A program made the translations under genes and the position numbers. From NCBI RefSeq assembly GCF_036226925.1, contig NZ_CP109031.1, positions 682,001-746,000 of the forward strand: 64,000 nt of DNA, read 5' to 3'. The notes beneath the pieces are model-generated. The model made no database searches. It was not told the DNA's origin and saw only the letters and a list, made by a program, of their open reading frames with translations. This DNA comes from Streptomyces sp. NBC_00659. Lineage in GTDB: Bacteria > Actinomycetota > Actinomycetes > Streptomycetales > Streptomycetaceae. Shown in pieces: positions 1 through 11,522 of the stretch; the first letter of the stretch is position 1, and each line of letters starts with the position of its first letter.

Positions 1-426
1 CACGGTGATCACCACCATCGCGCCGCGCAGTTCGGCCGCGGTGATCGCGCCGGTGACGAGCGGCCGGTCCGGGTGGTGGACACGGTCGTGGGCGAGGTCC
101 TTCTGTTCGTCCAGCATCCGCAGGAACAACAGGGCCAGTACGACGCTGACGACCCGGATCGCGGTGGTGCCGGAGGGACGCCAGGCCGTGCCGGACGCGG
201 CCGCCGCCGTGCCCTCCAGGGCGAGGACCCACAGCAGTCCGTAGGTGACGTAGATCTGCGGCCGGAACATGCGCAGCACGAAACGGCCGAGTCGAGCCGG
301 AACATGACGGCCAGGGCGGGCGGGCAGATGCCGGCCCGGTCGGGCGGGCACGTGCGGGGCGGCGGCAGTGGGCACTGCGGGGACCTCCCGGTGGGGTGCG
401 TCTCGGTTCGGTACGGCCGAACTCAT
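1..426 (-). CDS. UbiA-family membrane prenyltransferase-like protein (3' end beyond window)
   Basis: Partial gene read leftwards off the window; the first 142 codons are visible. After a Pro/Arg/His-rich cytoplasmic N-terminus come two hydrophobic segments (about residues 55-70 and 84-96) and then DEQKDLAHDRVHHPDRPLVTG-type sequence, which matches the Asp-rich signature of the UbiA superfamily (D-x-x-x-D-x-x-x-D followed by P-x-RPL-x-x-G). UbiA proteins bind a prenyl diphosphate through Mg2+ and transfer the prenyl group to an acceptor inside the membrane. The ATG at 426 overlaps the TGA of the AfsA-family gene by 4 nt, so it is translationally coupled to that operon. Acceptor and prenyl donor cannot be inferred. 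The family call is fairly firm; the specific function is open. Confidence 0.75.
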   Translation of the reverse strand, partial: MSSAVPNRDAPHREVPAVPTAAAPHVPARPGRHLPARPGRHVPARLGRFVLRMFRPQIYVTYGLLWVLALEGTAAAASGTAWRPSGTTAIRVVSVVLALLFLRMLDEQKDLAHDRVHHPDRPLVTGAITAAELRGAMVVITV

Positions 427-1403
427 GCGGCCTTGTGGGTGGTCGGGGCCGCCGTGGAACGAACCGGCCGGATGTCCGGGTCGGCGAGCCTGATGCTGGC
501 CTCGGCGGCCAGGGTGCCTGGCTGGCGCAGGGTGCACTCGATGTCGGCGCCCGGCCGGGCCGGAGCGGTCCGGCACACCAGCGGCAGATCCATCTCGGCG
601 AAACGTCGGAACCGTGCTCTCAGGGCGACCGGCAGCGGGCTGGGTGTGCGAACGGTTCCGGCGGACACACAGGCGCGCAGGGCGAGTTGGCGGAACGCCT
701 CCAGCTCCAGCATGCCGGGCACGTGGTCCACCCAGTGGTCGTAGAGGGTCGGGTGGCCGGTCTCGGCGACCAGGTCTGCCGTGTGGGTGCCGTCGTCCGC
801 GGTGCGCGGCGGGGAGATGACCGTGTTGGCAGGGGTGCGCCGGCCGACGAGTGCGGGCTCGACGCGTGCGCCGCGCAGGGCGACGGGCACGGCCGGAAGG
901 CCGAGCGCACGGCGCTGTGCGGCCCTCAGACGCGTCCAGTCCTCGGGCGGCATCCAGGAGTAGTCGATGCGGGCCAGCAGTGCCTCCCGGCCGCCGATGG
1001 CCAGCGTGAAGCAGAGGCGCAGGCCCCGCACTTCGGCCCGGGTCCGGAACCGCTTCTCGATCCGGGTGACGACGACCGCCTCGGTGGGCCGGTCCTCCCG
1101 GGTGAGGGCGGCCGGGTCCGGCACCTCGAACTCGACAGCCCTGAGCAGGAACTTGTGCCCCGGACGGACGCCGAGGTAGCGGTGGGCCACCACGAAGATG
1201 CCCTGCCGGCACGCCTCGAGGAGCAGCAAGGGGTCGAGGCGGTCGGCGGGGCCGAGGGTGTCGTCGTAGAAGGCGTGACGGCGGGGGAACCGTGCGGCCA
1301 GCAGCAACTCGTTCTCGCCGTGACGTTCGGAGTCTGTCAGGAAGACCTCCGCGGCCGCGTAACGGTGGACCAGTTCCTTGGGGAGTGTCCGGGTGAACTG
1401 CAT
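423..1403 (-). CDS. AfsA/ScbA-family gamma-butyrolactone (butenolide) synthase
   Basis: A 326-aa protein of the A-factor biosynthesis AfsA family, with two hot-dog-like halves. The N-terminal half contains DRLDPLLLLEACRQ followed by VEFEVPDP-type strands. The C-terminal half contains the matching YDHWVDHVPGMLELEAFRQ segment. Characterised AfsA-type enzymes join a beta-ketoacyl thioester to dihydroxyacetone phosphate, giving a phosphorylated butenolide that is later reduced and dephosphorylated to a Streptomyces autoregulator. The length is close to the usual family length of about 300 aa. The start lies 10 nt after the stop of the NDK-like gene and the stop overlaps the UbiA-like gene, so it sits in the middle of the left operon. 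No ArpA-like receptor gene is visible nearby, so the product could be a hormone or a different acyl-DHAP-derived metabolite. Confidence 0.9.
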   Translation of the reverse strand: MQFTRTLPKELVHRYAAAEVFLTDSERHGENELLLAARFPRRHAFYDDTLGPADRLDPLLLLEACRQGIFVVAHRYLGVRPGHKFLLRAVEFEVPDPAALTREDRPTEAVVVTRIEKRFRTRAEVRGLRLCFTLAIGGREALLARIDYSWMPPEDWTRLRAAQRRALGLPAVPVALRGARVEPALVGRRTPANTVISPPRTADDGTHTADLVAETGHPTLYDHWVDHVPGMLELEAFRQLALRACVSAGTVRTPSPLPVALRARFRRFAEMDLPLVCRTAPARPGADIECTLRQPGTLAAEASIRLADPDIRPVRSTAAPTTHKAA

Positions 1404-1413
1404 GGGCCGCTCC

Positions 1414-2358
1414 TCAGTTCGCGGTGGCGCGGAGGGTGTCCAGGTGAAGGCGCCAGGTGTCGGCGTCGGCTCCGTCCAGCACGGGCGTCCGGCCCGGCTG
1501 CCGCATGGGAAGCACCTTCGAGCCGACGATGACGGCGTCCCACGGGTCGAGGTCGACTCCCCGCCGCCAGGCGGTCTCCAGCAGCGTGCGCGGGGTGGCG
1601 GAGGGGTCGGCGCCCGGGTGCCGGGACACGGTGGCGCGCAGCCGGGCGACGGCGGGGTCGAAGGCGAGGTCCCGGGGCGCGGTCGCGTCGTACAACCGGC
1701 CGGTCAGTTCCCGGGCATGCCCGGTGCGGTCCTCGTCGGCGAGGGCGGAGCGGAACAGGCGGTCGCGCTCGCCGTCGTCGAAGTGGACGGCCAACTCGCG
1801 CAGGACGTCGGCGGGTTCGTCGGGGGTGTGCACGAGGTTCAGCAAGTAGCTGTAGCGGCCCAGGAGATGACGCAGCTGGCCGGGCCGGCGGGCGTCCGGG
1901 TCCGTGGGTCCCTTGAGCCGGGTGAGTTCGACCGAGGCGGGCACGTCCAGGTCGTGGCGGGGGCGGACGAGGAGCACGAGGGCGTCGGCGTCCTCCAGGA
2001 AGAGTGCGGCCAGCCGCCTGCGGTAGGGGGTGGCGAGGTTCCACTGGAAGTACCACAGGGAGCGGATCATGGTGCGGGTCAGCCGGGTGACAGCCGCGCC
2101 GACGATCCTGAAGCCCAGCCCGGCCAGCCAGTCCACGGCCGCGTCCAGCCTGCGGGCCACGACGGCGTCGGGCTTGAGGAGCAGCAGCGCGTGACGGTGG
2201 GCGAAGCCGGTGATGTCGCCGGTGAGGGCGGCGAGCTGGTCGTGGCTCTCCTGGTAGTAGGTGTCCGCGCCGTACAGGCGTTGTTTGTCGGGGTGGCAGG
2301 TCAGCAGGGGTGAAACGGGTATGCCGTACGAGGGTTCGGTGGGGTGGGCGGGTGTCAT
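1414..2358 (-). CDS. Divergent nucleoside-diphosphate-kinase-like protein
   Basis: A 314-aa protein, about twice the size of a normal NDK. An NDK-like domain spans roughly residues 55-190. It has HALLLLKPDAV (the K62 region, matching the NDK I-I-K-P-D strand) and GPTDP, corresponding to the NDK GPTNP loop. It also has NLVHTPD, in which H177 lines up with the phosphorylated histidine of the usual N-x-x-H-G-S-D motif. The Gly-Ser of that motif is replaced by Thr-Pro. The remaining C-terminal 120 residues are unrecognised and polar, and the N-terminus carries a short extension. The ATG at 2358 overlaps the upstream SDR stop by 4 nt. It is inferred to handle phosphoryl transfer on a non-standard substrate; a plain housekeeping NDK is unlikely given size and context. 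Confidence 0.75.
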   Translation of the reverse strand: MTPAHPTEPSYGIPVSPLLTCHPDKQRLYGADTYYQESHDQLAALTGDITGFAHRHALLLLKPDAVVARRLDAAVDWLAGLGFRIVGAAVTRLTRTMIRSLWYFQWNLATPYRRRLAALFLEDADALVLLVRPRHDLDVPASVELTRLKGPTDPDARRPGQLRHLLGRYSYLLNLVHTPDEPADVLRELAVHFDDGERDRLFRSALADEDRTGHARELTGRLYDATAPRDLAFDPAVARLRATVSRHPGADPSATPRTLLETAWRRGVDLDPWDAVIVGSKVLPMRQPGRTPVLDGADADTWRLHLDTLRATAN

Positions 2359-3611
2359 CGGTGGGTGCTCCCGTCGGGTCGGGCGGCGGCCGGCTCCTTG
2401 CGCGGGGGCGGGCCGAGGTAGCCGGTCGCGAGGCAGTGGTCGAGAAGGCGGCGCAGGTAGGCATGTGCGCCCGTCGCGGGCGGGCGGTGGCCGAAGGCCT
2501 CGGCGTGGGTGGCGTCGAAACGGACGCGGCGCCGGAAGTAGGGGGCGTACAGGGAGACGACACGGTCGTAGTAGGGGCGTTCCCGGCCGGGCAGGGCCGT
2601 GGCGGAGAACGCGGACGGGGGGACGAAGCGCGGCACGTGGAGGGACGGGTACTCGGCGAGGACGTCGGACATGTCGCGCAGGGTCAGCTCGTGGCCGACG
2701 GCGTGCAGGGTGCGGCCCTCGGCGTCCTGGAACCGGGTGGCGGCCTCCGTCACCAGGTCGGCGACCCGGTCGACCGGGACCAGGTCGAGGACGGCGTCCT
2801 GGTGGCCGGGCACGGTGCGGACCAGGCCTCTGGTCAGGACGCGGAGCACGGGGTAGATGGTCTTGAGGTCGCGGACCCGGCCGGTGCGGGAGGCTCCGGT
2901 GACGATGCTCGGGCGGACCACGGCGACGGGCAGGCCGTCCGCCGCGGCCTTGCGGACGAGGGTCTCCGCGGCCAGCTTGCTCTTCTCGTAGTCGTTGCCG
3001 GGGCGTTGGCCGAGGTCGAGTTCGTCCTCGTACGCGGTGCCGTCGCGTTCGCCGCACACGTAGGCGGTGCTGACGTGCACCAGGGGGACACCGCCCGCCA
3101 GGGCGACGCCCAGGACGTGCCGGGTGCCCTCGACGTTGACGCGCTCGTAGCGTCCCGGTGGCAGTCCGAAGTCGGTGACGGCGGCGCAGTGGACGATCCG
3201 GTCGGCGGTGACGGCGAGCCGCCGGTCGTCGCCGCTCAGCCCGAGGCCGGGGCGGGTGATGTCACCGGTCATCCGGGTGAGGGTGCCCGGACCGGCCGTG
3301 AGCCTTCTGCCGTTGTTGCGGACGAGGTCGCCGTTGCGGTGCAGCACGGCCAGCACGGTGTGACCGGCGGCGGTGAGCCGGGCGGTCACCTCGGCACCCA
3401 CGAAGCCGCTGGCGCCGGTCACCAGCACCGTCATCGGGCCGGACACCGCCGGATCGGGCACCACCGGGTCGGCCGCCATCGGCTGAGACGTCATCGGATC
3501 GGAAACCGACGTATCGGTGTTCATCGGACCGGTGTTCATCGGATCGGAGTTCTTCGAATCGAATTTGATCGGACCGGAGTTGATCGGATCGGAGTTGATC
3601 GGATCGGACAT
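2355..3611 (-). CDS. Extended-SDR (NAD-dependent epimerase / thioester-reductase-like) with repeat-built N-terminus
   Basis: 418 aa. A Rossmann fold begins at residue 60 (TVLVTGASGFVG, with Gly66-Gly69-Gly72). The active-site Y208-x3-K212 lies in YEKSK, preceded by HVSTAYVCG with Ser181. This layout is that of extended SDRs, including the male-sterility/thioester-reductase type that reduces acyl thioesters. Residues 1-59 are an unusual extension made of Asn/Thr-Ser-Asp-Pro-Ile/Met pentapeptides encoded by a 15-bp tandem repeat. I chose the ATG at 3611 because GGAGG lies 8 nt upstream, whereas the in-frame Met at residue 60, where SDRs normally begin, has no clear ribosome site. It lies 52 nt after the nucleotidyltransferase gene and overlaps the NDK-like gene. 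Reduction of the AfsA product or of an acyl precursor is a reasonable inference. Confidence 0.85.
   Translation of the reverse strand: MSDPINSDPINSGPIKFDSKNSDPMNTGPMNTDTSVSDPMTSQPMAADPVVPDPAVSGPMTVLVTGASGFVGAEVTARLTAAGHTVLAVLHRNGDLVRNNGRRLTAGPGTLTRMTGDITRPGLGLSGDDRRLAVTADRIVHCAAVTDFGLPPGRYERVNVEGTRHVLGVALAGGVPLVHVSTAYVCGERDGTAYEDELDLGQRPGNDYEKSKLAAETLVRKAAADGLPVAVVRPSIVTGASRTGRVRDLKTIYPVLRVLTRGLVRTVPGHQDAVLDLVPVDRVADLVTEAATRFQDAEGRTLHAVGHELTLRDMSDVLAEYPSLHVPRFVPPSAFSATALPGRERPYYDRVVSLYAPYFRRRVRFDATHAEAFGHRPPATGAHAYLRRLLDHCLATGYLGPPPRKEPAAARPDGSTHR
3520..3611 (-). repeat. Degenerate 15-bp tandem repeat inside the SDR reading frame
   Basis: About six imperfect copies of a 15-bp unit (on the plus strand ttgatcggatcggag and variants ttgatcggaccggag, ttcatcggatcggag, ttcatcggaccggtg). 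They encode the pentapeptide-like series Ser-Asp-Pro-Ile-Asn at the N-terminus of the reductase. Because the unit is a multiple of three, gain or loss of copies keeps the frame. The copies nearest the start codon are the most alike, suggesting recent expansion at that end. Confidence 0.85.
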
Positions 3612-3663
3612 CGGTGGATCCTCCGCGCGGAACGTCGGGTGGGATGCTCGGAGCCCGGCGCCG

Positions 3664-5316
3664 TCACCGGGCCTGATGGGGCTGGGCCCCGTTGCCGGCC
3701 AGCAGGTCGCGGGCCTCTTCGATGGGCAGCTCCGCGCCGAGGTGGGCGCCCAGGCGCAGCCAGTCGTGGCCGAGCTGCAGCGTCGCCCGCCAGGTGTGGG
3801 CGGAGTCGAACGAGAGCGGGAAGGAGTCGGCACCCACGGCACCCCGCACCAGGCCGATGAAGCGGCGCAGCTCCGCGCGGAGGGCGTCGCCGTCCTCCGC
3901 CGAGTCCACGCCCCGCACCAGCAGCTCGGCGGCGTGCACGCCGATCGGCCGGGTGGCTGCGGGAAGCAGGTCCATACGCCGTACGAGGTCGGCGTCCGCG
4001 GGCAGTGGATTGACCCCGTGGGCGCTGAACAGCGCGCGCAGCGCGGCGTGCACGGCGCGGCGCGCGGTGAGTTCGGCCACCCGGTGCTGGCCGCGTCGCA
4101 GGGCCCCGGTCAGGTCCTCGAGGGCGTTCTCGACCACGACGTTGGACCACACCAGGGCCATGGCGGCGGCGGCGAACCGGTCGGCGGGCAGGGGCATCAG
4201 GTCGACCGAGCGGGTTTCGCCGACGGCCGCGCCGCGCACGGAGAGCAGCGGCTGCGCGGTGGAGGGCGGCGGGGTCACGGGGCCGGGCGGAGCGGCGAGG
4301 GGAAGAGCGGGGGTGACGGCGCCGCCACCCTTCCAGGCGAGGCGGATCAGTCCGTAGCGCAGGAAGACGGCCAACAGCGCTCCGGGATCGGTGACACCGG
4401 TACCGGCGGCCCCGGCCAGCACTTGGGGCAGCGGCCTGCCGAGGACGAGGGAGCGCCAGACGGCTCCGGCGTCGGCGCCGAGGGCGAACACGTCGCGCCG
4501 GCCGCGGACGACGTGGATCCGTTCGCCGGTCTGCCAGGTGGTCACCCGGGCCACGCGTTCGACGGTGAGCCGCTCGGGCCGCCGGGGGACCTTGGTGAGT
4601 CCGAGGTTCTCGGCGAAGTCGAGGCAGTCGGTCAGCTGGGCCTGGGCGGCATCGGAGTCGCCGGGCCGGACCGCAGCCGATTCGAGCTCCCAGTAGCGGT
4701 CGCGTATGTCCGTCCGTCCCGCCCGGTCCAGTTGCATGGACAGCCACTTGGGTTCGAGATAGGTCTCGCCCAGTCCGGCCGCCCAGGACTTGACGCTCTG
4801 CACGAGCGCGGCGCGCGTCCAGTCGACCGCCTCTTCGCTCTCGCCGAGGCACTGGAGTGCCATCGCGTGCCGCAGGGACTGCCGGGCCCGGTGCGCCCAC
4901 CAGTCGGCGGCGATCCGGCGGAAGCGCTCCACGGGCAGCAGCGCCTTCACTTCCTCGATGAGGCTGTGCCCGCGCAGCGGATGGCTGTGCAGCACCCGCT
5001 GGCAGCGGTTGAGGAGATCCTCGGAGAGCCGGCCAGGCCTTCCCGCTCCTTGCTCCAGCGCCGTGAACTCGTCGGCGAGCCGGCGCACCGACCGGGTGCG
5101 GATCTCCACCCGCCTGCCGTCCACGAACAGCAGCGACGGCATGGTCGGCAGATCGTCGTCCGTGCGGCTCACGAGCAGGAAGTCGATGTCGGAGGAGGGG
5201 TTGCCGAACCCTTCCGCTATGGAGCCCTCCAGGGTCACGGCCCACTCGGTGTCAGAGGGGAGTTCGGCGAGCGACTTGTCGAGCAGGTCCTGCAGCCGTT
5301 CCTCGGTGAGGATCAC
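3664..5316 (-). CDS. MNT/KNT-type nucleotidyltransferase-domain protein
   Basis: 550 aa. The first 60 residues carry the polymerase-beta-type nucleotidyltransferase signature GSIAEGFGNPSSDID (Gly31-Ser32 and the metal-binding Asp43/Asp45), as in small MNT proteins and kanamycin nucleotidyltransferases that transfer a nucleotide monophosphate to a hydroxyl. The middle region (about 100-230) is helical, with Trp/Arg-rich HEPN-like or substrate-binding character. The C-terminal half is unrecognised. GTG at 5316 is preceded by ggag at 8 nt and overlaps the dikinase stop by 4 nt, so it is coupled to that gene. The pairing of a PEP-dependent phosphotransferase with a nucleotidyltransferase suggests successive phosphorylation and nucleotidylation of a substrate, or self-resistance chemistry. 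The exact role is unknown. Confidence 0.75.
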   Translation of the reverse strand: MILTEERLQDLLDKSLAELPSDTEWAVTLEGSIAEGFGNPSSDIDFLLVSRTDDDLPTMPSLLFVDGRRVEIRTRSVRRLADEFTALEQGAGRPGRLSEDLLNRCQRVLHSHPLRGHSLIEEVKALLPVERFRRIAADWWAHRARQSLRHAMALQCLGESEEAVDWTRAALVQSVKSWAAGLGETYLEPKWLSMQLDRAGRTDIRDRYWELESAAVRPGDSDAAQAQLTDCLDFAENLGLTKVPRRPERLTVERVARVTTWQTGERIHVVRGRRDVFALGADAGAVWRSLVLGRPLPQVLAGAAGTGVTDPGALLAVFLRYGLIRLAWKGGGAVTPALPLAAPPGPVTPPPSTAQPLLSVRGAAVGETRSVDLMPLPADRFAAAAMALVWSNVVVENALEDLTGALRRGQHRVAELTARRAVHAALRALFSAHGVNPLPADADLVRRMDLLPAATRPIGVHAAELLVRGVDSAEDGDALRAELRRFIGLVRGAVGADSFPLSFDSAHTWRATLQLGHDWLRLGAHLGAELPIEEARDLLAGNGAQPHQAR

Positions 5317-8138
5317 CTGTGTGTCTCCGTTCGGGGGCTGTCCGCGGCGGCCGGGCTGTCGTGCGGCGGGTCGGCGAGTACGGTGACCGTGCCCGCCGCG
5401 CCGTCGACCCGCAGCCGGGTGCCGGAGCGGATCTCGGTGGTGGCGCCCTTGACCTGGACGACGGTCGGAATGCCCAGCTCCCTTGCCACGACGGCCACAT
5501 GGGTCAGAGGGCTGCCCCGTTCGATGACGATGGCCGCGGCCGAGGAGAGCGCGGTCACCCATCCGGGGTCGGTGCGGTAGGCGAGCAGGATGCCGCCGCC
5601 GATGTCGCGTGGGGTGTCGGTGACCACGGCGGGCCCCTCGACAACGCCGGGGCAGCAGGGGACTCCGGTCAGTTCGCGGGCGCCGCTGGGGGCGGCGGGG
5701 CCGCTGCTCCAGCCGGCCCGTTCGAGGTTGCCCGACCAGTACGGCGCGCCGTGGGTGGTGAAGCGGGACGGTGCGTGCAGTTCGGCGTCGGCGGCCTGTT
5801 GCCGGCGGCGCAGCACGACCAGGTCCCGCAGTTCGGTGTGGGCGATCGTGCCTTCGTAGGCGCCCCGGATCTCCTCCAGGCGCAGCAGGAAGACGTCGTC
5901 CCAGGCGTCGATGGCACCGGCTCGTGCCAGATCGCGGCCCAGGGCGCGCAGCATGCGCTTGGCCGCTCCGAAGGCGCGGGTGCGGCAGAACCTGAGCCGT
6001 TCCCGGTCGGCGAGAGCGGCGCGGGCCTTGCCGCGCACCCGTTCGTACACCAGGCGCCGCGGACGGCTCAGATGCTCGTCGAGGTACGTGTCGGCCTCGC
6101 CACCGCGGTCCGGTGTGCCGCCGCCGTCGGCGTCGCCGTCGCCGGAATCCGGCAGGACTTCGCGCAGCAGTGTGAAGACTCCCGCCGGGTTCTCGCTCAG
6201 GTCGGGGACCTCCAGCTTGAGTTCGTCGGGACTGCGGTAGCCGTAGTCTGCGATGTACGCGTCGACGGCCCGCAGGAAGCCGGTGTGACCGGCGTCGGCC
6301 AGCGCCTGTCGGGCCTCGGAGTCAGGGGTGCGTTCCAGCAGCGCCAGGATGTCGGCGTCGGCACGCGCCTGGGCGGCCAGCTCGCGCAGGGCCCAGACCG
6401 GTTCCGCGGACTCGACCGTGTCGCCCGGGGCCGCCGCGGCCCAGATGAACCATTCGGGCGAGGCCGGCAGCCATCTGCGGGTCAGCAGGGCCAGGAGTCC
6501 CACGGAGAGCAGGATCGTGGCGTCGAGGGTCTGCATCGGGCCCCATTTTTCGATGAGTTCCCGCTGGAGCCGCCGGAATCGGCGGTAGGTCTCGTCTCCC
6601 GGCAGTGCGTCGTAGTCGACATTGTTGAATACCGTGTACGAGCGATAGAAATCTCGATGAAACGTGTCGACGGACTTTCGGATGGTGAGAAATCTTCCGG
6701 CAAAGATGACCGTACGTGTCAGACGTGAGGCATGGCCGCGCAGCCCGGGCCGGGGCGTGAACGGGTGGAGCGTGTCCGCGAGTTCATCGGGAATACTCTC
6801 GGCGACGCCCAGGGATTTCTCCAGGACGCGCCGGTTGAGCGGGTACAACGGGGCGAGACGCACCATGCGGTACCAGTGGAACAGGTTGTAGTAGACCCGT
6901 CCGTGGACATAGCCGAGGAGGTACGGGGTCCACTCCCGCACCTCGCGCAGCCGCTCCCCGCGGACTCCCAGGGCTCGGGCGTAGCTGTCGTATACCTTCG
7001 CGTAGGTGTCGGCGGCGAAGCTGAAGGTGAGCGGGGACACGACACCGCTGAAGCTCTCGATGATGTTGGAGTTGTCCCACAGCCGCAGGTCCTGCCCGGG
7101 CTCGGGTGCGGGGCCCGTGGCCGGGGCGAGGGTCGTGACGGGCCGGCTCTGCAGGATCCACAGGGCGTCCTCGTCGATGGCCCACTCGATGTCCTGGGGG
7201 GCGCCGTACCGGGCGGTGACGCGGGCCCCGGCCGCGTGCAGCCGGGCCAGTCGGGCGTCCGTCAGCACCGGTCGGGCGCGGTCCTCGTGGGCGACGGGCG
7301 ACACCTGACAGCCGGGTCCGGATCCGGCGTCGTAGCGCTCCTGTTTGTCGCCGAGCACCCTGGTCAGCGGCTCGCCGGTGGCGGCGTCCAGGACGACGGT
7401 GTCGGCGTCGACGGCGCCCGACACCAGCCCCTCCCCCAGTCCGTGGACGGCGCTGACGACATGCCGGTCGGTGCGCCCGCTCGCCGGGTCGGCGGTGAAC
7501 AGCACACCGCTGACTTCGGCGGCCACCATGCGCTGCACGATGACGGCGACGCCTCCGGTGTCGATCGCCAGCCCGTGGCGCGCGCGGTAGCGCAGGGAGC
7601 GTTCGCTGAAGGCCGAGGCCCAGCAGCGGCGGACATGGGCGACGACCTCGTCGAGGCCGCGGACGTTGAGGAAGCTGTCGAACTGGCCGGCGAACGAGTG
7701 GCGTGCGCCGTCCTCCTGCGCACCGGACGACCGGATCGCGACGGCGCCCCCGCCGGCCAGGCCGTAGGCCAGTCCGATGGCGTCGGTGAGGCGGTCGTCG
7801 AGCGGAGCGGCCTCGATCAGGCCGGCGATCTCGGCGGCGATCCGGCCCGCTTTCGGCTCCCAGTCGTCGGCGAGCAGCCGCTTCAGGTGCCCGTCGAGGC
7901 CGCTGCCGCGGCTGAATTCAGCGAATACGTCCAGGCCGATGACCGACCATCGCGGTACTTGAAATCCGGACGCGGTCAGGGTGTGCAGGTTCTTCCCTTT
8001 ACCACCGGCCCATTCGGTGACAAGGGATTCGTCGCTGGACTGTGTGAGAACGTGCGGGGACCGGTGTTCGGATCCCGTGGTGGGCGACAATGCGTTTCCC
8101 CTCCGAGGCTGTTGCTCGACCTCGCTCGAATGTTGCAC
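5313..8138 (-). CDS. PEP-synthase / rifampin-phosphotransferase-like dikinase
   Basis: 941 aa. Residues about 40-335 form a PPDK-type ATP-grasp domain (GGKGKNLHTL, then AIRSSGAQEDG and SFAGQFDSFLNV, ending DIEWAIDEDALWILQSRP). A long middle linker domain follows (about 350-800). The C-terminal swivelling phosphohistidine domain (about 850-925) has GSPLTHVAVVARELGIPTVV, in which His880 is the expected phospho-carrier. This order is that of PEP synthase and of rifampin phosphotransferases, which use ATP to phosphorylate either pyruvate or an antibiotic. The linker differs from PEP synthase, so a specialised substrate is more likely. It is the first gene of the left operon. The GTG at 8138 is the longest option; no strong ribosome site is visible, and a start nearer residue 38 is possible. 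Confidence 0.8.
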   Translation of the reverse strand: MQHSSEVEQQPRRGNALSPTTGSEHRSPHVLTQSSDESLVTEWAGGKGKNLHTLTASGFQVPRWSVIGLDVFAEFSRGSGLDGHLKRLLADDWEPKAGRIAAEIAGLIEAAPLDDRLTDAIGLAYGLAGGGAVAIRSSGAQEDGARHSFAGQFDSFLNVRGLDEVVAHVRRCWASAFSERSLRYRARHGLAIDTGGVAVIVQRMVAAEVSGVLFTADPASGRTDRHVVSAVHGLGEGLVSGAVDADTVVLDAATGEPLTRVLGDKQERYDAGSGPGCQVSPVAHEDRARPVLTDARLARLHAAGARVTARYGAPQDIEWAIDEDALWILQSRPVTTLAPATGPAPEPGQDLRLWDNSNIIESFSGVVSPLTFSFAADTYAKVYDSYARALGVRGERLREVREWTPYLLGYVHGRVYYNLFHWYRMVRLAPLYPLNRRVLEKSLGVAESIPDELADTLHPFTPRPGLRGHASRLTRTVIFAGRFLTIRKSVDTFHRDFYRSYTVFNNVDYDALPGDETYRRFRRLQRELIEKWGPMQTLDATILLSVGLLALLTRRWLPASPEWFIWAAAAPGDTVESAEPVWALRELAAQARADADILALLERTPDSEARQALADAGHTGFLRAVDAYIADYGYRSPDELKLEVPDLSENPAGVFTLLREVLPDSGDGDADGGGTPDRGGEADTYLDEHLSRPRRLVYERVRGKARAALADRERLRFCRTRAFGAAKRMLRALGRDLARAGAIDAWDDVFLLRLEEIRGAYEGTIAHTELRDLVVLRRRQQAADAELHAPSRFTTHGAPYWSGNLERAGWSSGPAAPSGARELTGVPCCPGVVEGPAVVTDTPRDIGGGILLAYRTDPGWVTALSSAAAIVIERGSPLTHVAVVARELGIPTVVQVKGATTEIRSGTRLRVDGAAGTVTVLADPPHDSPAAADSPRTETHR

Positions 8139-10664: not shown

Positions 10665-11522
10665 ATGCCGAAAAACGCCCCACCGGACGCCGACGACCAC
10701 GACCGGCCCACCGCGCGGGTACGGCTGTCCACGGCGCTGCGCGACTCCCCGGCCGGCCGGGGATGGCGGCACGGCAAGGACATCGAACTGGGGCAGAGGT
10801 CGCTGGGCTTCGCGGCCCTCGGTTTCCTCACGCTGGTGCCCCTCCTGGTCGTCGTCTCCGCCGCCGATCCGGCGCACGGGCGGGGCTTCGCACAGTGGCT
10901 GGGGGACGGCCTCGGGGTGTCCAGGGCCGCCAGGGACGAGGTCGCGCGGCTGTTCGCCGGGCCCGCGCAGGTGCGGCAGACCACGACGGCCTTCGGTCTC
11001 GCCGCGCTCGCCGTCTTCGGCCTGAGCTTCGGCGCGGCGGTGCAGACCGGCTACGAGAAGATCTGGGACCTGCCCGCGGCCCGCTGGTACGCCAGATGGC
11101 GCCAGGTCCTCTGGCTCGCCGTGCTCATCGGCACCATCTACGTGACCGCGACGACCACGTTGTGGCGCCACTCGGCCGCCGGAACGGTGACCGCGGCACT
11201 GAGCGCCGTCCTGTTCTTCTGGTGGTCGCAGTGGATGCTGCTCGGCGGCAGGATCGCCGGGAAGGCACTCCTGCCCGGCGCCGTACTGACGGCACTCGGC
11301 CTGTTCGGTCTACGGATGTTCTCGCGTCTGGTCTTCTCGCCCCTGATCGCCTCCAGCACCGTCAACTACGGTCCTTTCGGCACCGTCCTGGTCGTCCAGT
11401 CCTGGCTGGTCGGTGTCGGCGTCGTCGTCTTCGGCGGCGCGCTGGTGGGGCGGCTGGCGCACGAGGAGATCATCACCGCGGTGGAGACCCTTCTGCGCCG
11501 GGCGCAGCATCGTAGGGGGTGA
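10665..11522 (+). CDS. YihY/BrkB-family inner membrane protein
   Basis: 285 aa with six hydrophobic segments (about 46-67, 105-125, 145-165, 175-195, 200-220 and 240-265), matching the six-helix YihY/BrkB (formerly RNase BN) family. Conserved family features include the YEKIWDLP-like stretch after the second helix and a small-residue-rich last helix. Family members are membrane proteins of uncertain function, sometimes linked to complement resistance or lipid movement. It stands alone, with its own candidate promoter and a terminator on either side. The family assignment is good; the function is not known. Confidence 0.85.
   Translation: MPKNAPPDADDHDRPTARVRLSTALRDSPAGRGWRHGKDIELGQRSLGFAALGFLTLVPLLVVVSAADPAHGRGFAQWLGDGLGVSRAARDEVARLFAGPAQVRQTTTAFGLAALAVFGLSFGAAVQTGYEKIWDLPAARWYARWRQVLWLAVLIGTIYVTATTTLWRHSAAGTVTAALSAVLFFWWSQWMLLGGRIAGKALLPGAVLTALGLFGLRMFSRLVFSPLIASSTVNYGPFGTVLVVQSWLVGVGVVVFGGALVGRLAHEEIITAVETLLRRAQHRRG

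Follow-up and report, generated by a model that had tools for sequence, protein, structure and literature searches.

AfsA enzymes join 3-ketothioesters to dihydroxyacetone phosphate (DHAP) to form phosphorylated butenolides (PMC7756379, available part). In the AfsA/ScbA loci for gamma-butyrolactones (GBLs) and butenolides (A-factor, SCB, and gblA-gblR-gblE of R. jostii), an AfsA synthase stands together with a redox enzyme. All but S. griseus among eight Streptomyces genomes have afsA with a divergent tetR immediately 5', according to the accessible sections of PMC3848822. The Rhodococcus GBL loci consist of gblA-gblR-gblE, and the main text of PMC5735094, so far as it is available, contains neither "kinase" nor "prenyltransferase." Here we analyzed 64,000 nucleotides of Streptomyces sp. 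NBC_00659 (the window; G000:C1:682001-746000, on a single 9.66-Mb contig), which begin within an operon for an AfsA enzyme, a dikinase (the PPDK-like protein), a nucleotidyltransferase (NTase), a short-chain dehydrogenase/reductase (SDR), a nucleoside diphosphate kinase (NDK)-like protein, a UbiA enzyme, and a nitroreductase/BluB-like flavoprotein (NitR). We propose that this operon is one form, with seven genes, of a biosynthetic cluster that is conserved among actinobacteria and makes a phosphorylated, lipid-like butenolide, and we give this proposal somewhat less than an even chance. The operon shares the AfsA synthase and the redox enzyme with the GBL loci, but it lacks a tetR divergent from AfsA and adds the dikinase, NTase, NDK-like protein, thioester reductase, and UbiA enzyme, to which 41 of 76 relatives add a fatty-acyl-AMP ligase (FAAL) and an acyl carrier protein (ACP).

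Conservation and layout of the cluster

The NTase is strongly matched in 15 of 295 genus genomes, including its own, not counting five weak matches (E values of 4e-6 to 1.5e-4). In 14 of the 294 other genomes, the PPDK, NTase, SDR, NDK, AfsA, and UbiA genes are all present in the same order, and a phylum sample holds the cluster in 6 of 396 genomes, again with its own included. A scan of named genomes with two NTase peptide patterns gave 76 loci that share the core, which is a lower bound. These come from nine genera: 35 Streptomyces, 25 Nocardia, 5 Lentzea, 4 Kutzneria, 3 Paractinoplanes, and 1 each of Rhodococcus, Streptantibioticus, Gordonia, and Tsukamurella. The NTase is present in all 76 by construction; PPDK is found in 76, SDR in 75, NDK in 69, AfsA in 68, UbiA in 68, and NitR in 52. 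AfsA and UbiA are either both present (68 loci) or both absent (8 loci: the 5 Lentzea, and L058, L100, and L117, which lie near contig ends). All five Lentzea loci keep ACP-SDR-PPDK-NTase and have a thymidylate-kinase (TMK)-like protein and an acyl-CoA dehydrogenase, while NDK, AfsA, and UbiA are absent. They also encode a 264-amino-acid protein between SDR and PPDK that has no Pfam or NCBIfam match (L093:6577-7371; also L098, L109, L111, and L120). Two genomes of another genus in the same class (G331 and G646; L141 and L142) carry the full cluster with a FAAL-NTase fusion and without NitR.

An earlier reading made from the letters of the window alone (the sequence-only reading) had considered that the gene set might occur only in this strain and had suggested looking for AfsA with these partners across genome collections; the 14 genus genomes and 76 named loci dispose of the first point and answer the second. 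All seven genes show signs of purifying selection, with dN/dS values of 0.23 to 0.58 against two relatives. For the six main genes, distances over 66 loci correlate with one another at 0.91 to 0.98, although shared descent alone also yields such correlations. We found no description of the cluster in the literature searched, which excluded subscription journals and preprints, and the available parts of PMC5735094, PMC5550956, PMC3848822, and PMC4748050 do not describe it.

All of the operon genes lie on the minus strand, so transcription would run leftwards from the dikinase gene (8138), in the order dikinase, NTase, SDR, NDK-like protein, AfsA, UbiA, and, beyond the window, NitR (Table 1). 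Neighboring genes overlap by 4 nt at four junctions and are separated by 10 nt at one and by 229 nt at another. The sequence bears out the operon layout of real genes on one strand that the sequence-only reading had described. Its six genes exist, but the operon has seven: the sequence left of position 1 holds the rest of the UbiA gene and then the BluB/nitroreductase-like gene. Its 10-nt gap also stands, whereas its 52-nt gap assumed an SDR start within a low-complexity repeat, and codon scores favor a start at 3434. The first codon of the dikinase gene is uncertain, being either the GTG at 8138 or, from the codon score, 8090. Gene calls in relatives came from our own codon-score scripts instead of a standard gene finder, and their starts and fusions are approximate.

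Table 1. Features of the operon, in window positions
Feature	Position	Strand	Basis or remark
Dikinase-type small-molecule phosphotransferase	5313..8138	-	ATP-grasp PPDK_N + middle domain + His swivel domain
Nucleotidyltransferase	3664..5316	-	ANT(4')/kanamycin-nucleotidyltransferase-like + strand-rich + HEPN-fold parts
Intergenic gap with low-complexity repeat	3435..3663	-	Sequence
Thioester-reductase-type extended SDR	2355..3434	-	NAD_binding_4; likely start 3434, open frame extends past 3611
NDK-like phosphotransferase, C-terminal extension of ~110 residues	1414..2358	-	PF00334
AfsA/ScbA-family phosphorylated butenolide synthase	423..1403	-	PF03756, NF041195
UbiA-superfamily membrane enzyme, N-terminal part	1..426	-	Complete gene: window -572..426 (L009:13428-14426)
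BluB/nitroreductase-like flavoprotein, seventh gene	-1222..-569, outside window (L009:12778-13431)	-	PF00881; 4-nt overlap with UbiA

AfsA and the case for a signal

The AfsA protein matches PF03756 (138 bits) and scores 214.3 bits against NF041195, the ScbA/BarX equivalog, above its cut-off of 200, in agreement with its earlier recognition as a butyrolactone synthase. Among relatives, the AfsA of L085 scores 216.0 and that of L079 just misses the cut-off at 198.7. The equivalog score, together with the flavin oxidoreductase gene in the operon, would fit a GBL-type signaling locus in which AfsA makes an autoregulator, neighboring enzymes decorate it, and a TetR receptor responds. A TetR gene (P0009) lies 2.1 to 3.0 kb left of the window edge, and near the cluster L040 and L041 have a further, divergent AfsA gene (L040:17919-18953 and L041:719-1783), accompanied by two TetR genes and an acyl-CoA dehydrogenase-like gene. 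However, the TetR/MFS flank of the window is shared only with L031 and L032 among 14 relatives, and no flanking gene family, regulators included, is common to more than 4 of the 15 genus neighborhoods. The divergent tetR reported immediately 5' of Streptomyces afsA genes is absent; the NDK-like gene precedes AfsA on the same strand, both in the window and in the neighborhoods of the 14 genus relatives. Nor does the text on the Rhodococcus loci mention a kinase or prenyltransferase, so far as it was cited above. AfsA itself occurs in 239 of the 295 genus genomes, yet its 15 top matches coincide exactly with the 15 loci of the cluster (42 to 100% identity, except one at 41%). We consider a signaling locus unlikely.

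After the cluster loci, the next AfsA matches in the genus sample are L144 and L145; these two loci, outside the family, served as controls and have no partner genes at E ≤ 1e-4. The AfsA of R. fascians pFiD188 (36% identity), first among plasmid matches, has no partner genes among the 22 annotated features of its stretch.

These comparisons support one part of the sequence-only reading, a dedicated unit that differs from ordinary GBL loci in placing phosphoryl and nucleotidyl enzymes beside AfsA, and give little support to another, that the product is a signal: no flanking family is widely shared, and tailoring-type genes (P450, glycosyltransferase, and O-methyltransferase) border some relatives. 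Amidohydrolase genes also border some loci. A biosynthetic role for AfsA has a parallel in the gladiostatin polyketide synthase (PKS), where an AfsA domain builds part of a metabolite and not a signal; there it ends a trans-AT PKS (PMC7756379, same part), whereas no PKS is among the seven genes here.

The dikinase and NDK-like proteins

The dikinase had been read as a PPDK/PEP-synthase-type enzyme, but its Pfam matches are PF01326 and PF00391 only, and the Pfam scan found no C-terminal phosphoenolpyruvate (PEP)/pyruvate-binding barrel. It has instead the architecture of rifampin phosphotransferase (RPH), an ATP-grasp domain, a middle domain, and a swivel domain with the His, and its closest solved chains are those of RPH (5fbs, labeled PEP synthase in the PDB; E value of 1.7e-113). 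RPH converts rifampin and ATP to phospho-rifampin, AMP, and Pi (PMC4844700, in the part accessible). NCBIfam NF004881 likewise labels the dikinase PEP synthase (1,088 bits, cut-off 883), and the protein falls short of the rifampin-inactivating phosphotransferase equivalog NF041857 (332 bits versus 999). His880 in the motif GSPLTH, K47, and R136 are invariant among 11 aligned members, and from this family alignment we infer that His880 is the phospho-carrier.

RedH-PigC ligases resemble the dikinase in the same respects as RPH, including the lack of a PEP barrel. The RedH and PigC NCBIfam models score 365 and 310 bits, near the RPH model and over the same length, and an aldehyde could come from the thioester reductase. 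The dikinase might thus be a ligase whose phosphoryl transfer activates an aldehyde or another group for condensation with a nucleophile, leaving no stable phosphate. We regard this as improbable: the scores are far below the RedH and PigC cut-offs (1,350 and 1,300), and the adjoining NDK- or TMK-like kinases would fit phosphate building better. A further difference from RPH and from these ligases is that the gene sits in a biosynthetic-type operon. As separate observations, the PPDK gene reads as two open frames in L061 (Streptomyces kebangsaanensis) and L039, which may reflect assembly error or decay, and a 97-bp stretch at 2.33 Mb that matches the PPDK gene at 88% was dropped, its neighborhood (L134) having only generic AMP-ligase and acyl-CoA dehydrogenase matches.

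The NDK-like protein matches PF00334 at 44.8 bits but reaches at best 32.5 bits against the NCBIfam NDK equivalog, whose cut-off is 155. H177 aligns with the catalytic His of NDK, and K62, R163, N174, and H177 are invariant among 12 members; these presumably correspond to the substrate Lys, Arg, and Asn and the His of NDK numbering. Of nine plasmid records that matched with NDK-like relatives, the four examined have annotated neighborhoods that differ from the cluster.

The SDR and its acyl supply

The sequence-only reading had the SDR as an extended SDR reducing acyl thioesters or ketones. The extended SDR stands, and the function narrows to thioester-reductase-like. The protein matches NAD_binding_4 (142 bits), its best PDB profile match is MxaA (4u7w; E value of 3.7e-36), followed by the AusA R-domain and the FAR and CAR reductases, and its YxxxK residues (Y208 and K212 of P0005) are invariant among 12 members. 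It scores 125.5 bits against TIGR01746, under the cut-off of 213.35. No convincing match to an N-terminal extension was found ahead of relatives' SDRs, although whole-length tblastn alignments entered the extension in four. Positions 3435 to 3611, within the gap between NTase and SDR, are repeat-like and of low complexity; an ACP gene occupies this place in other clusters.

In 41 of the 76 loci, PPDK and NTase have a FAAL-type acyl-AMP ligase between them (in pieces in L070). An ACP precedes the SDR in the same 41 loci and in the five Lentzea, and by our gene calls three Nocardia fuse it to the SDR; in L043, a small ACP-like gene (10874-11125) lies between NTase and SDR. Not counted were AMP-ligase domains belonging to other genes (L054, L038, L065, and L066) and an ACP match in L062 that was distant and weak. 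The joint occurrence of FAAL and ACP, with the ACP at the SDR, links the SDR to an acyl group carried on an ACP. Carboxylic acid reductase, an A-T-R fusion, combines the same three functions of acyl-AMP ligase, carrier, and thioester reductase that the relatives have; in the relatives they are split into separate genes with a FAAL-like ligase, NTase-fused in 28 of 76 loci, and A and T are missing in the window.

FAAL presence changes six times on a 77-row PPDK tree (a quick tree, in which the joining of the Lentzea group to the Nocardia-type group carries a long-branch warning), so several losses of the FAAL/ACP module are likely. The window locus falls in a 25-row Streptomyces clade without the module, and the ACP HMM gave no match across the whole window. 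The best FAAL candidate elsewhere in this genome (36% identity, ~250 kb away) may or may not serve the operon. It has a LuxR-type regulator and a cutinase gene within 4 kb, and the 20-kb stretch around it gave no ACP match.

The nucleotidyltransferase

The NTase is predicted to be an ANT/KNT-type small-molecule nucleotidyltransferase. It has GS..DxD..E residues, which we take to be the Pol-beta-type motif. Residues 1 to 245 have an ANT(4')/kanamycin-nucleotidyltransferase-like predicted fold; a strand-rich part (~250-334), resembling PqqD by eye only, and a HEPN-fold part (~377-496) follow. The match lists for the predicted NTase and UbiA structures leave other folds possible.

A head-to-tail fusion of FAAL with the NTase occurs in 28 of the 76 loci (25 Nocardia, Gordonia, Tsukamurella, and one Kutzneria; examples are L085, L066, L099, and L118). 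The fusion proteins are ~1,100 to 1,340 amino acids long (819 in L118 by the codon-score caller), and we know of no FAAL fused to an ANT-like nucleotidyltransferase in the literature. Separately, an Enterobacter chuandaensis plasmid (L123, 4987-17224) has a distinct putative operon annotated with a phosphotransferase, an NDK-like protein, and a nucleotidyltransferase-family protein, and the kinase/NDK/NTase trio may recur in other pathways.

Since the nearest relatives of the dikinase and NTase are antibiotic-modifying enzymes (RPH by sequence profile, ANT(4')/KNT by predicted fold), the two could mask a toxic product or intermediate, for self-resistance or as a pro-drug, as RPH and ANT do for antibiotics. 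Several features make masking doubtful. Both genes are in all 76 loci, of which only the PPDK count is informative because the NTase was used to find them; the fusion to FAAL points to a biosynthetic step; and no transporter family is prominent among the flanking families scanned, most flanking genes being outside that scan.

UbiA and NitR

The UbiA protein has the predicted family fold and the first Asp-rich motif, with D106, D110, and D114 (DxxxDxxxD) invariant among 15 members. UbiA enzymes usually have a second motif, DxxxD, and normally use allylic diphosphates. At the place of the second motif, this protein, unlike the family members DGGGP synthase (6m31) and ApUbiA (4od4), has E232-F-ARK236, with E232, A234, R235, and K236 also invariant among 15 members. 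In its predicted model it closely resembles DGGGP synthase as well as a membrane phosphoribosyltransferase (PRTase), whose acceptors carry phosphate. These acceptors, along with the NTase and the TMK-like protein found where NDK is missing, could be accounted for if the NTase turned an alkyl or butenolide phosphate into a nucleoside diphosphate (NDP)-activated form for UbiA, with the NDK- or TMK-like kinase supplying nucleotides, but ANT enzymes transfer AMP to hydroxyls, not phosphates, we know of no UbiA enzyme with an NDP-alkyl donor, and this route is quite improbable.

NitR matches PF00881 (66 bits) and scores 39.5 bits against the BluB model TIGR02476, under its cut-off of 150. Among the genus neighborhoods, L037 and L043 gave no NitR match, and in L044 the gene stands between those for AfsA and UbiA. 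All three Paractinoplanes loci, in which no NitR was detected, have a luciferase-like protein beside AfsA (L079 scanned), and L078, likewise with no NitR detected, has the luciferase-like family too.

Proposed pathway

We return to the proposal that the operon makes a phosphorylated, lipid-like butenolide, by a scheme of two arms whose every reaction, step order, and product are put forward conditionally; the analysis itself establishes which genes are present, their order and conservation, the families to which they are assigned, the catalytic residues that they retain, and the predicted folds. Arm 1 would start from an acyl thioester, probably loaded by the FAAL on the dedicated ACP in the 41 relatives and coming from another source in the window. 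The SDR would reduce it to an aldehyde or alcohol, the RPH-like dikinase would phosphorylate the reduced product (ATP to AMP and Pi), and the NDK-like kinase and ANT-like NTase may modify the phosphate further. In arm 2, AfsA would join a beta-ketoacyl thioester and DHAP into a phosphorylated butenolide, which the flavoprotein would reduce. The UbiA enzyme would link both arms through alkyl transfer. The Lentzea gene set suggests that arm 1 can exist alone and that another phosphate kinase can replace NDK.

Several points weigh against this scheme. At the locus, neither the window nor its clade has a FAAL or an ACP, so the scheme does not account for the arm 1 substrate, and the seven genes include no ketosynthase or other supply of the substrate for AfsA. 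The NTase is without an assigned step, and NitR is present in only 52 of the 76 loci. NDKs normally act on diphosphates, and raising a monophosphate to a diphosphate would thus require a new specificity. The E-x-ARK motif and the normal use of allylic diphosphates mean that the UbiA donor may be something else, and the TetR genes near the window operon, L040, and L041 leave room for a signaling role.

The alkyl transfer might take the form of a non-isoprenoid "prenylation," although the chances of this are slim. A split carboxylic acid reductase (FAAL, ACP, and thioester reductase) would give a fatty, perhaps allylic, alcohol, which the RPH-like dikinase and the NDK-like kinase (TMK-like in Lentzea) would convert to an alkyl diphosphate. 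UbiA would use this, and not a terpene diphosphate, to alkylate the AfsA butenolide phosphate, yielding a lipid class across actinobacteria.

Implications

The cassette is retained across several actinobacterial families, including 25 Nocardia loci. We read it as an AfsA-dependent biosynthetic cluster with a partner set that we did not find described: AfsA, thioester reductase, RPH-like kinase, ANT-like nucleotidyltransferase, NDK-like kinase, and UbiA were not met in combination in the literature found. Genome mining detects "butyrolactone" clusters by an afsA homologue (PMC5550956, available portion), and such mining would hide the remaining genes of this cluster. If the two-arm model is true, these actinobacteria would have a new route to make and use alkyl (di)phosphates, leading to a new lipid class.

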